Shown: positions 2,732 through 41,124 of the stretch, piece after piece
Position numbering within the stretch: position 1 is the stretch's first letter
Layout of the letters: every line of letters starts with the position of its first letter
Source of the DNA: an uncultured Cryomorphaceae bacterium
GTDB lineage: Bacteria; Bacteroidota; Bacteroidia; Flavobacteriales; Schleiferiaceae
DNA length: 64,000 bases
NCBI GenBank assembly: GCA_913031435.1
Contig: CAJWFD010000007.1
Coordinates: 1 to 64,000, forward strand
Direction: 5' to 3'
The notes under the pieces: generated by a model
Seen by the model: the letters and a program-made list of their open reading frames with translations, nothing else
Told to the model about the DNA's origin: nothing
The model's database searches: none
Translations under genes and position numbers: made by a program

Positions 2732-4203
2732 TGTCTAACAAACCAAATATATTGACGCTAGGAGCCCTTATTTCCAGTGGTTATAGCCCTAAAAGTATCA
2801 AAGAAGAGATTAGAGACAACTTAGTGCCTCTTCTTAAATCAGGTAAGCATCCGTTTCAGGGTATTTATGGTTATGAGCACTCCGTGATTCCAGCTATTGA
2901 ACGCGGGCTACTTGCTGCGCATGATATATTGTTTTTAGGCCTTCGAGGACAGGCAAAAACACGTCTAGCCCGTCAAATGGTTGGGCTTTTAGACGAATGG
3001 ATGCCTGTTTTAGCAAGTAGCGAGCTCCATGAAGACCCCATGGCTCCCCTCACCTCAGAAAGTAGGCGTCAGATTGCTTCATTAGGAGATCAAACACCTA
3101 TTAAATGGGTGCACCGTAATGATCGTTTTTTTGAAAAATTAGCCACTCCTGATACTACAGTAGCTGATCTTATTGGAGATATTGACCCCATTAAAGCGGC
3201 GAATGAAAAATTGAATTTTTCAGATGAAAGAGTGATTCACTACGGTATGATTCCTCGAGCGCATCGTTGTATTTTTGTAATTAACGAATTACCAGATCTT
3301 CAACCTAGACTACAAGTTGCCCTCTTTAATATCTTACAAGAAGGAGATATTCAGATCAGAGGCTTTCAAAAGCGACTGGAATTAGATGTTCAGTTTGTTT
3401 TTACAGCAAATCCGGAGGATTACACCAGTAGAGGCAGTATTGTTACGCCGTTAAAGGATAGAATTGGTTCTCAAATTCACACCCACTACCCTAAGTCTCT
3501 GGATGTTGCTTTGAAAATAACGGCACAAGAAACTAAAGATATTCAGAATAAATATCCACATATTACCGTGAACCCAATAGCGAAGCAACTTATTGAGCAG
3601 CTAGCCTTTAGTGCACGTGAGAGTTCATTTATAGATGCAACAAGTGGAGTAAGTGCAAGAATGACAATCAGCGCATTTGAAGCTTTACTAACCACAGTAG
3701 AGCGACGTCGACTTTTAGAGGGATCTGACAAAAATCAGGTTCGCTTAAGTGACTTCTATGGCACTATTCCAGCGATTGTTGGTAAAGTAGAGCTGGTTTA
3801 TGAAGGAGAGCAAGAAGGTGCAGAAGGTGTTGCAAATAGTTTGCTGGGAAGTGCCACAAAAACGGTCTATGAAAGCTATTTTCCTGTTTTCCGAAACTTA
3901 AAGCGCACAAATGACAGCAACCCATTCCTTCATATTCAAAACTGGTTTAGTGAAGGAGGTCGTATAGAATTGTTGGATGAATTCTCAACAAATGAATACG
4001 AAAAAGCCTTAGATATAGATCCACTGAATGATTTTATTAAGTCTCATTTTCCTAAAGGCACAACAGAATCTAAATCTTTTTTAAAGGAAATGGTACTCTG
4101 GGCATTGTGTGAATACAACCAGATTAATAAGTCCAGAACCGAATTAAGCACTGACTTTAACGATCTTTTTGGAAATCTTCTTGATGGAGATAGTGTTGAT
4201 TAA
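2731..4203 (+). CDS. MoxR/magnesium chelatase ChlI-like AAA+ ATPase
   Basis: A 490-residue AAA+ protein. The P-loop reads GLRGQAKTR (about residues 70-78), a variant of GxxGxGK[ST]. The Walker B region reads IFVINELPDL (181-190) with Asn before the Glu in place of the usual Asp. It is followed by an ILQEGDIQIRG pre-sensor insert motif typical of MoxR/ChlI/McrB-type ATPases, a sensor segment FVFTANPEDY, and an arginine stretch PLKDRIGSQI. The gene is coupled to the VWA gene by a 1-nt overlap. Together they probably form a chelatase-like ATPase/VWA machine of unknown target. Its stop overlaps by 4 bp with the convergent LysM gene. Confidence 0.88.
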   Translation: MSNKPNILTLGALISSGYSPKSIKEEIRDNLVPLLKSGKHPFQGIYGYEHSVIPAIERGLLAAHDILFLGLRGQAKTRLARQMVGLLDEWMPVLASSELHEDPMAPLTSESRRQIASLGDQTPIKWVHRNDRFFEKLATPDTTVADLIGDIDPIKAANEKLNFSDERVIHYGMIPRAHRCIFVINELPDLQPRLQVALFNILQEGDIQIRGFQKRLELDVQFVFTANPEDYTSRGSIVTPLKDRIGSQIHTHYPKSLDVALKITAQETKDIQNKYPHITVNPIAKQLIEQLAFSARESSFIDATSGVSARMTISAFEALLTTVERRRLLEGSDKNQVRLSDFYGTIPAIVGKVELVYEGEQEGAEGVANSLLGSATKTVYESYFPVFRNLKRTNDSNPFLHIQNWFSEGGRIELLDEFSTNEYEKALDIDPLNDFIKSHFPKGTTESKSFLKEMVLWALCEYNQINKSRTELSTDFNDLFGNLLDGDSVD

Positions 4204-9367: not shown

Positions 9368-9476
9368 CACTAAATAACGCTAAGTTACTCAGAACCTAAC
9401 TTCGCGGGGAAAGTGAATTTTCCAATAAATCAATTACAATACCCTTCTTTTTTTATTATTCACCTATATTTAAACT

Positions 9477-9538
9477 ATTCAAAGGAAACTTTGAGTGTGA
9501 GTTAGGGGTACGGAGCCAAGAAATTGGCTCCTTTTTTT
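9477..9538 (+). ncRNA. Candidate small structured RNA with two GAAA-capped hairpins
   Basis: Between the lipoprotein gene and the photolyase operon are two hairpins, both with a GAAA loop. Hairpin 1 pairs 9477-9484 with 9489-9496 (core TCAAAG/CTTTGA). Hairpin 2 pairs GGAGCCAA (9512-9519) with TTGGCTCC (9524-9531) and is followed by seven T. A TATATTTA box at 9465-9472, one base off the Bacteroidota -7 box, would place a transcript start right at hairpin 1, giving a transcript of about 62 nt. This could also be the 3' end of the lipoprotein mRNA or an attenuator before the photolyase gene. No Rfam family was assigned. Confidence 0.4.
9512..9538 (+). terminator. Rho-independent terminator
   Basis: A perfect 8-bp stem GGAGCCAA/TTGGCTCC with GAAA loop, then TTTTTTT. 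It ends 39 bp before the photolyase start, so it closes the transcript coming from the lipoprotein side or a short RNA of its own. Confidence 0.85.
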
Positions 9539-9577
9539 ATTATAAACTTTCATTCGTTCTACATTGTTTAAACCTGT

Positions 9578-11107
9578 ATGAACCCAACAATACGACTAGT
9601 CTTAGGAGATCAATTAAACCCACTACATTCGTGGTATACCACAACTTCTAAAAACATTACCTATGTATTTATAGAATGTAAGGAAGAAGCCTCATATGCT
9701 CCCCACCACATCCAAAAAGTGGTAGGTATTTTCACTTCGATGCGCGACTTTGCGCAAAGACTAAGGGATCAAGGACATCAAGTTTGGTACCATCATATCC
9801 TCGATTCAACTGCCGCTGAATTATCCAGTATTTTATATTCCGCATGTCAGGAAATAGGGAGTTCTTCCGTTGTTTGTCAGGAGCCAGATGAATATAGGGT
9901 AAAGCAATATTTGCAGAAGTTAAATAGTACTACGCTTCATCTTAGTTTCGAATCAAGTGAACATTTTATCAGCAGTCCTTCAGAGTTTCAGGAGATGTTC
10001 AAGGGTAAGAAAAGTTTCCTTATGGAGACTTTTTATAGAAAGCTACGTAAGCGAACAGGGTTGCTGATGGATGGAAAGGAGCCTCACGGTGGCAAATGGA
10101 ACCTTGACCATCAAAACAGGAAAAAACTTCCTAAAAACCACCTGCTACCACCAGTGTACCTTCCTATAACAGATGTGACAGAGGTCTACCGTGATGTCCA
10201 ACAAGCGGGATTAAGAACCATTGGAACTCTTCAAGATCCCAAGCAATTTTATTGGCCCACAAATACGGATCAAGCCTGGGAAGTTTTTGACCATTGGCTT
10301 AATCATAAGTTTGGTTTGTTTGGAGATTTTCAAGATGCCATGACGGTAAAGGACTGGGCACTTTATCACAGTCGAATTTCATTCGCTCTAAATACTAAAA
10401 TGATAGATCCATTGGAGGTCTGCCGCCGAGCTGAGAATAAATACAGATCTGATCCTTCTATTGCGTTGAATGCAGCAGAAGGATTTATTCGACAAATTTT
10501 AGGCTGGCGCGAATTTATGAGAAGCGTTTATTGGACGAGCATGCCAGATTTCGCAAGTGTAAACTACTTCAACCACAAGAGCGATTTACCAGATTGGTTT
10601 TGGACAGGAAAGACGAAGATGAAATGCCAAGAACACACCATCACCCAGAGTCTTCAATATGGATACGCCCATCATATTCAACGCCTTATGGTTACTGGAA
10701 ACTTCGCATTACTGGCAGGCATTGATCCAGACCAAGTAGATCAGTGGTATTTAGGAATTTACGTTGACGCATTTGAATGGGTAGAAATCACAAATACCCG
10801 GGGAATGAGTCAGTATGCTGATGGAGGGAAAATCGCTACAAAGCCCTATGTGGCTTCAGCCAATTACATGAATAAAATGGGTGACTACTGCACCAACTGC
10901 AGTTACGACCACAAAACTAAAACCGAAACCAACAGTTGTCCTTTAAATACCCTCTATTGGGATTTCTTTGATCGTAACAGATCAAAATTAGATACGAATT
11001 TTCGTTTGGGAATGGTATACCGAACCTATGATAAAATGGGACCAGAACTCAAAGATCAGATTCGTAAACGAGCTCACTATGTACATGAACACTTGAATGA
11101 ATTATAA
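9578..11107 (+). CDS. Iron-sulfur bacterial cryptochrome/photolyase (FeS-BCP, PhrB-like)
   Basis: A 509-residue member of the deoxyribodipyrimidine photolyase-related (FeS-BCP/CryPro) family. The start RLVLGDQLNP is typical of the family. The four cysteines expected to hold a [4Fe-4S] cluster are present: C350 in TKMKC, C438 and C441 in DYCTNC, and C454 in NSCPLN. As I recall, these match the cluster ligands of Agrobacterium PhrB, a (6-4) photolyase. FAD-binding region features include EGFIRQILGWREFMR and GNFALLAGIDP. It is expected to repair (6-4) photoproducts with blue light. It shares TAATG with the next gene, a DASH cryptochrome. Confidence 0.95.
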   Translation: MNPTIRLVLGDQLNPLHSWYTTTSKNITYVFIECKEEASYAPHHIQKVVGIFTSMRDFAQRLRDQGHQVWYHHILDSTAAELSSILYSACQEIGSSSVVCQEPDEYRVKQYLQKLNSTTLHLSFESSEHFISSPSEFQEMFKGKKSFLMETFYRKLRKRTGLLMDGKEPHGGKWNLDHQNRKKLPKNHLLPPVYLPITDVTEVYRDVQQAGLRTIGTLQDPKQFYWPTNTDQAWEVFDHWLNHKFGLFGDFQDAMTVKDWALYHSRISFALNTKMIDPLEVCRRAENKYRSDPSIALNAAEGFIRQILGWREFMRSVYWTSMPDFASVNYFNHKSDLPDWFWTGKTKMKCQEHTITQSLQYGYAHHIQRLMVTGNFALLAGIDPDQVDQWYLGIYVDAFEWVEITNTRGMSQYADGGKIATKPYVASANYMNKMGDYCTNCSYDHKTKTETNSCPLNTLYWDFFDRNRSKLDTNFRLGMVYRTYDKMGPELKDQIRKRAHYVHEHLNEL

Positions 11108-12384
11108 TGAAGACCTGTCTACTCTGGTTTAGAAATAACCTTAGAATCCACGATAACAGCCCCGTTTCTTATGCCTACGAGCAGTATGACAGAGTTATCC
11201 CCGTCTATCTATATCCTAAGCCAACAACGACAGGTGATTGGAATGAAGCGGGCTTTGGAGATTCTCGAAAAGCATTTCTTGATCAATCGATACTAGATCT
11301 GCAAGTCACCCTTGAATCCTATGGGTCTAGATTGTATGTACTCCGAAATCTTGAGGCAGTAGATCTGATACAAATTGCTTTAGACCACAATGCTGAGGCT
11401 ATTATTGGAGGTGTCGAAATGGCGTATAATGAGACGGTAGATCAAAAGAACATCAAAGCAGAAGGAAAATCCTCAGGAATATTCGTCAAGTTCTTAGAAG
11501 AACGCACTTTATTCAACGAACGACAGCTTCCTTTCGTTTTACAAAAATTACCAGAGGTCTTTACAAAATTCAGAAAACTAGTAGAGAAAAATAGTACTGT
11601 TTTACCAACAATTCCAGCTGCTACCCTCTCCTCCTTGGACAGTTCAACTATAACGCTGCCTTATGAAAAAATCAAACTGACCGCGCTCACAAAAGATGAT
11701 CGCAGTGCCGTGCCTTTTGAAGGCGGAGAGAGACAGGGTTTAAAAGAAGTGGCGTACTATTTTAAACAGACGGGACATATCCTAAAGTACAAGGAGACAC
11801 GTAACGAACTACTGGGACGAGATTATAGCTCTAAATTTTCTCCTTTTCTAGCTCTAGGATGCATTTCGGTGCGTCAAGTATATGAGGATTTAAAACAATT
11901 TGAACAGGAATTTGAATCGAACGAAAGTACTTATTGGTTATTTTTTGAACTACTCTGGAGAGAATACTTTCAGTGGGTCGCGTTAAAACATGGCAAGGAC
12001 TTGTTTCTACCTCAAGGTCTGAGACCTGATAAACCAATCACAGAAGGTTTTAATCAAAAAGCATTTGAACGTTGGAAAAATGGAACTACCACAGACGAAT
12101 TCGTTAATAGTAACATGAGGGAATTGTCTGAAACGGGGTTTATGAGTAATAGAGGAAGGCAGAATGTTGCTTCTTATTTAATTCATGACATGGGAATCGA
12201 TTGGCGCGCTGGTGCAGCCCACTTTGAAAACCAATTGATCGATTATGATCCCGCATCAAATTACGGGAACTGGTTATACCTCGCAGGAAAGGGAAATGAC
12301 CCTAGGCCCTTTAGGAAATTTGACACTGTATTTCAGGCTAATCGATATGATCCTGAGAAGACATTTACCTCAACTTGGTCATAA
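11107..12384 (+). CDS. DASH-family cryptochrome / photolyase
   Basis: A 425-residue photolyase-family flavoprotein. The N-terminal antenna domain starts CLLWFRNNLRIHDN. The C-terminal FAD-binding domain carries NSNMRELSETGFMSNRGRQ, ASYLIHDMGIDWRAGA and NYGNWLYLAGKGNDPR, which are typical of the DASH clade rather than class I CPD photolyases. DASH proteins bind FAD and an antenna folate and repair cyclobutane dimers, at least in single-stranded DNA. It is translationally coupled to the upstream Fe-S photolyase, so one transcript would supply repair enzymes for both main UV lesions (inference). Confidence 0.93.
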   Translation: MKTCLLWFRNNLRIHDNSPVSYAYEQYDRVIPVYLYPKPTTTGDWNEAGFGDSRKAFLDQSILDLQVTLESYGSRLYVLRNLEAVDLIQIALDHNAEAIIGGVEMAYNETVDQKNIKAEGKSSGIFVKFLEERTLFNERQLPFVLQKLPEVFTKFRKLVEKNSTVLPTIPAATLSSLDSSTITLPYEKIKLTALTKDDRSAVPFEGGERQGLKEVAYYFKQTGHILKYKETRNELLGRDYSSKFSPFLALGCISVRQVYEDLKQFEQEFESNESTYWLFFELLWREYFQWVALKHGKDLFLPQGLRPDKPITEGFNQKAFERWKNGTTTDEFVNSNMRELSETGFMSNRGRQNVASYLIHDMGIDWRAGAAHFENQLIDYDPASNYGNWLYLAGKGNDPRPFRKFDTVFQANRYDPEKTFTSTWS

Positions 12385-40985: not shown

Positions 40986-41017
40986 TTGCTATCTCACAAT
41001 CGCAGGCCTTAACTTCG
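40986..41017 (+). promoter_or_regulatory. Probable promoter of the SRP RNA gene
   Basis: TTG at 40986-40988 and TAACTTCG at 41010-41017 (one change from TAnnTTTG) with a 21-nt spacer stand right before the SRP RNA 5' end, as expected for a Bacteroidota promoter. Confidence 0.5.
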
Positions 41018-41124
41018 CAGTGGGCAAGTCTTACACAACCAGCTCCTGATGAATCCCCCAGGGTGGGAACGCAGCAAGGGTAATTAGTCGTAGCGGTGTG
41101 ATGTGAGTAGCTTGCCCACTTTTT
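41018..41124 (+). ncRNA. ffs: Small signal recognition particle RNA (4.5S type)
   Basis: The RNA folds as one long hairpin: GTGGGCAAG (41020-41028) pairs with CTTGCCCAC (41111-41119), and CACAACC pairs with GGTGTG further in. The apical Ffh-binding domain reads CCAGGGTGGGAACGCAGCA, with the GGAA-type tetraloop and asymmetric loop typical of bacterial small SRP RNA. A T-run follows at 41120-41124, so the closing stem doubles as a terminator. It pairs with Ffh for co-translational protein targeting. Confidence 0.93.

Follow-up and report, generated by a model that had tools for sequence, protein, structure and literature searches.

GibS is an intergenic small RNA of Bacteroides thetaiotaomicron of about 145 nt with an unstructured 5' seed, for which direct mRNA targets have been shown, and it affects a neighbouring metabolic operon (PMC7366714). 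Rfp18, a small RNA of Flavobacterium psychrophilum, affects protease mRNAs (PMC9723704). The element described here lies before a photolyase operon within a stretch of 64,000 nt (the whole of which is called the window), and it resembles both of these RNAs in kind. Like GibS (PMC7366714), it comes from the phylum Bacteroidetes and is a candidate intergenic, genus-conserved small RNA with its own predicted start, an intrinsic terminator and a conserved single-stranded segment. Unlike GibS, it is only about 62 nt long, its 5' end is folded, its linker is central and no target was found. Like Rfp18 (PMC9723704), it is a structured flavobacterial RNA conserved throughout a genus, although the genus is a different one. 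Terminator attenuators and riboswitches are similar in that a hairpin, a conserved single-stranded core and a terminator stand ahead of an operon, but the RNA here has no antiterminator, leader peptide or Rfam match, and a promoter-like element follows its terminator.

The reading we favour, with a probability of roughly 0.55, is that the element is a free intergenic small RNA gene whose product acts in trans through its linker, and that the photolyase operon has a promoter of its own. With TATATT as the -7 box, RNA polymerase would begin at about 9477 and produce a transcript of about 62 nt, consisting of a 5' hairpin, a 15-nt open linker and a terminator hairpin. Transcription would halt at 9532-9541, before the photolyase gene, and the photolyase operon would be started independently by a promoter, AAACTTT...GTTTA, situated past the terminator and ahead of the ATG. 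The features are listed in Table 1. The two photolyase-type genes probably share one operon.

Table 1. Features of the small RNA locus and the photolyase genes that follow it (positions in the window).
Feature	Position	Strand	Evidence
-7-like box TATATTTA	9465..9472	+	putative promoter box, -12 to -5 from inferred start
Candidate small RNA gene, inferred transcript ~62-65 nt	9477..9541	+	covariance model R1; no conserved frame
Hairpin 1, 8 bp	9477..9496	+	GNRA-type loop in most relatives
Single-stranded linker	9497..9511	+	consensus UUAGGUUAGGGGUACG among relatives
Hairpin 2 and T-run, intrinsic terminator	9512..9538	+	terminator call; 8/8 pairs invariant
AAACTTT, -35-like element of putative second promoter	9544..9550	+	AACTTT in 19/19 tabulated loci
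GTTTA, -10-like element	9566..9570	+	GTTTA, GTTTG or GTTA in 19/19 loci
DPRP photolyase-related protein gene	9578..11107	+	PF04244, E 1.1e-65
DASH-type cryptochrome/photolyase gene	11107..12384	+	TIGR02765, 467.9 bits, cut-off 317

A sequence-only reading of the window had proposed a compact unit of two GAAA-tetraloop hairpins, and its coordinates for the box, hairpins, TACCC (9440-9444) and GGGTA (9506-9510, inside the linker) were exact on recheck; the GAAA loops lie at 9485-9488 and 9520-9523 and the T-run at 9532-9538. The region folds more stably than all of 200 shuffles (z = -4.3), a value obtained with a fold that took in pairing of TACCC, which is accidental judging by relatives. The alternative fold that this TACCC:GGGTA pairing had suggested was given up, because relatives do not keep TACCC and the inferred start is downstream of it. 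The two-hairpin RNA alone gave -20.5 to -22.0 kcal/mol and took the described fold in the window and all six relatives folded, with the linker open and unpaired over 14-15 nt. Hairpin 2, with 8 bp, five G-C pairs and seven T, qualifies as a Rho-independent terminator. The two tetraloops are present in the window, but in relatives the loop of hairpin 1 varies (GAAA, GCAA, or TTAT in genome G003). No reading frame stays open across relatives, since stops close the frames in nearly all genomes, and the RNA consensus contains no ATG from which a leader peptide could begin. The comparison gave conserved RNA structure without coding capacity, as expected of an intergenic small RNA gene.

Conservation sets the element apart from its surroundings. 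A blastn search covering 100 genomes detected it in 19 others of this genus at 82-91% DNA identity, and the matches mostly ran from the -7 box to the terminator inclusive and left out the flanks; only the closest relative, G020, aligned over the whole region, at 77% identity. Across 19 loci the mean pairwise identity of the RNA was 97% (minimum 90%), compared with 33% at four-fold degenerate sites, which are saturated, 69% for the photolyase protein and 57%, after pairwise alignment, for the 50 nt that precede the promoter box. When genomes G000 and G011 were compared, the RNA ranked with tmRNA, SRP RNA and tRNAs among the most conserved stretches outside shared ORFs. We take this conservation to be the decisive evidence against a chance origin. 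Constraint this strong on about 60 nt, in a genus whose synonymous sites are saturated, implies that the function is important.

The pattern of substitutions indicates the strand. All 8 pairs of stem 1 are paired in 100% of cells; four of them vary, always to a G-U wobble, so that pairing is kept in the + strand RNA only and lost on the opposite strand. This favours an RNA and disfavours a DNA palindrome. All 8 pairs of the terminator stem are unchanged in relatives, an invariance that would seem to exceed the need of a plain terminator. In the covariation analysis that had been proposed, the stem 1 wobbles preserve pairing on the + strand, and no compensatory double change was found in either stem, because there is too little variation. 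As judged from sequence comparison, the structural case is one of conservation and wobble pattern, not of covariation. Conservation of hairpin 1 in relatives, on which the proposal had been staked, was confirmed.

A covariance model (R1) built from 14 copies recovered the RNA in 20 of the 25 genus genomes examined, with E values of about 1e-16 to 1e-20 for whole copies. There is usually one copy per genome; G022 has two copies with two photolyase genes, and in G008 a second copy is cut by the contig end. The proposed comparison with Rfam covariance models matched no known family, even at E up to 5. Model searches found no credible copy in the other 63 genomes of the family, and a 395-genome sample of the phylum returned, apart from the window itself, only gene-end terminators. 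A pattern scan of GTDB r220 (about 85,000 species) turned up 20 loci on Flavobacteriales metagenome contigs and two chance matches, and those loci that were checked are contigs already in the genus set. The same kind of scan found no match in IMG/VR. For other genera of the family and order, the stretches ahead of DPRP that were read did not contain the RNA. Weak model matches at L058, L156 and L157 resemble ordinary terminators (L156 and L157 lie at gene ends), whereas those at L059 and L076 were rejected as chance matches to the pattern. The element thus looks like a genus-specific small RNA gene without counterpart in Rfam or the other genera examined, and represents a near-invariant, usually single-copy non-coding RNA in uncultured marine Flavobacteriales.

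In the genus loci read, the RNA lies in a syntenic block of bshC, a lipoprotein gene, the RNA, DPRP, cryDASH, a PLP-dependent decarboxylase gene and hisS. The terminator lies 145 nt past the lipoprotein stop in the window, and most species are alike, an arrangement that would suit an element serving the upstream lipoprotein gene merely as terminator and 3' UTR. This explanation is extremely improbable. First, the adjacent upstream gene is a different and divergent one in G011, G009 and G007 (loci L006, L016 and L018), where a response regulator replaces the lipoprotein gene and the RNA still stands beside the photolyase; a lipoprotein 3' UTR is excluded there. Secondly, the near-invariance of the RNA contrasts with the lack of conservation in the stretch ahead of the -7 box. 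Past the lipoprotein stop, imperfect inverted repeats (AAGTTA...TAACTT, GGGGAAAGTGAATTTTCC) were also seen at 9378-9425 of the window; no conservation of them was seen in relatives.

On the photolyase side, the RNA lies 36-49 nt ahead of the DPRP gene in all 20 genomes that carry it. Both the RNA and the photolyase are missing in five genomes, which is partly an effect of assembly: in G006 and G014 the contigs end within bshC, and G012 and G018 yielded no match to bshC. A joint deletion was demonstrated in G001 only, where the promoter box is fused to the end of a gene that by its motif, read by eye, resembles beta-carotene hydroxylase (contig C42, L134 at about 3700-3860). In several other genera (L102-L127) the gene preceding DPRP resembles, by eye, a DUF2256 zinc-ribbon or a DUF2805/TIGR03643-type protein, small families that may travel with photolyases.

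The putative promoter of the RNA was assigned by its spacing. TATATT stands exactly 6 nt ahead of ATTC in 17 of the 19 tabulated loci, the exceptions being TATCTT in G003 and a one-base shift in G015. The flavobacterial sigma-A consensus is TAnnTTTG, with the box at -12 to -5 (PMC9723704), and the constant spacing places TATATTTA at this position. From this box we infer a start near 9477. Several relatives have TATATTGC at the box, which also fits the SM5 motif TAnnTTGY (PMC9723704). No conserved -33 box was seen across the loci. The constant box spacing, the intrinsic terminator and the near-invariance of the RNA support the earlier proposal of a compact small RNA.

The second putative promoter follows directly. 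AACTTT begins only a few nt past the T-run, and GTTTA is 7 nt before the photolyase ATG; the distance from AACTTT to GTTTA or GTTA is 13-18 nt, with the ATG thereafter. Judged by the CGT/TGT -10 box (PMC9723704), the promoter may be of the ECF type. A wider regulon for AAACTTT...GTTTA was not found. One other orthologous match to this type of promoter lies ahead of a gene that by eye looks like DUF2805/TIGR03643, and it was discounted since it seemingly falls inside an oppositely oriented DUF2256-like coding sequence.

These features bear on the possibility, also raised in the sequence-only reading, that the RNA is a cis-acting attenuator, that is, the leader of the photolyase mRNA in which a ligand, a protein or a processive antitermination factor governs passage of hairpin 2. 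The strict co-residence of the RNA with the photolyase gene suits a role in cis. For example, wherever the contig extends far enough, the RNA is present in every genome of the genus with DPRP, no more than 50 nt from the ATG of that gene, and G001 lost the RNA and the photolyase in a single deletion while the box was kept. The invariance of the terminator stem also agrees with it. However, the position is weak evidence by itself, because the whole block is syntenic and the fixed place may be partly inheritance. In addition, no rival pairing to the terminator was found, either within the RNA or with the downstream mRNA: both hairpins persisted in all seven genomes in folds extended to include the photolyase leader plus 60 coding nt. 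A conserved AAACTTT...GTTTA past the terminator would be superfluous if the leader were read through. Positive evidence for attenuation was not obtained, and we consider it unlikely; the separate promoter-like element and the lack of antiterminator pairing favour a free small RNA.

An invariant open segment such as the linker is naturally read as the part through which a free RNA would act in trans. Within the linker, GTTAGGGGTACG is invariant at every locus, and UUAGGUUAGGGGUACG would make the contacts, most probably as base pairs with mRNAs. Conserved targets were sought by pairing the linker with 714 orthologue pairs (-80 to +50), covering 1.20 Mb of G000 and 1.18 Mb of G011, or about two thirds and half of the respective genomes. 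The real linker did not stand out from 40 shuffled ones. Its best weaker-of-two energy was -17.8 kcal/mol, where the best values of the shuffles averaged -17.65, and -12 was reached by 156 pairs with the real linker and by 157 with shuffles. The perfect complement 10-mer TACCCCTAAC was conserved at no gene start examined. Pairing of the linker with the photolyase mRNA was rejected, as the energies generally do not improve on those of shuffles; an 8-bp linker match at the start of DPRP is confined to the sub-group around G017, G019, G021 and G022b. Targets beyond the 1.2 Mb examined, short seeds or protein partners are possible.

The empty target search would also be expected if the RNA chiefly bound a protein, as a sponge or structural RNA, in place of pairing with mRNA. 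Neither the linker nor the two arms of hairpin 2 vary, and there is no compensatory change, which agrees with protein binding. Sponge RNAs of the CsrB kind carry a repeated binding motif, whereas a single short copy per genome without such repeats is found here, and we regard this explanation as quite unlikely. Very unlikely, in our estimate, is a sensor or contact element specific to the photolyase system, bound for instance by the photolyase/cryptochrome proteins, or by a factor of light stress that takes polymerase past the terminator; if true, light-driven DNA repair would be regulated via an RNA confined to one genus. Owing to the fixed place before the photolyase/cryptochrome operon, a link to light-driven repair can be tested, and the invariant linker and terminator stem offer precise bases for tests.

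Other known or possible RNAs were noticed during the analysis. A conserved stretch at L173 15716-15899 (G000:C17) gave a sub-threshold match to Bacteroidales-1, a 6S-like family, at 27.9 bits (gathering 60), and is possibly the unrecognised 6S RNA of the genus. Because of this match elsewhere in the genome, the RNA before the photolyase operon is probably not the 6S RNA of the organism. A stretch of 187 nt at L174 10391-10577 (G000:C18), with 85% identity between G000 and G011, a longest frame of 42 codons and no Rfam match, is possibly another unknown RNA. At L159 316-403 (G000:C2), 88 nt with 90% identity to G011 and no good Rfam match look riboswitch-like by eye. A TPP riboswitch at L158 16371-16477 (G000:C1) scored 41.8 bits against an Rfam gathering cut-off of 54.3, so that default annotation would miss it. 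Lastly, the window itself contains a Bacteroidales small SRP RNA at 41015-41121 on the + strand (RF04183, 106.6 bits).
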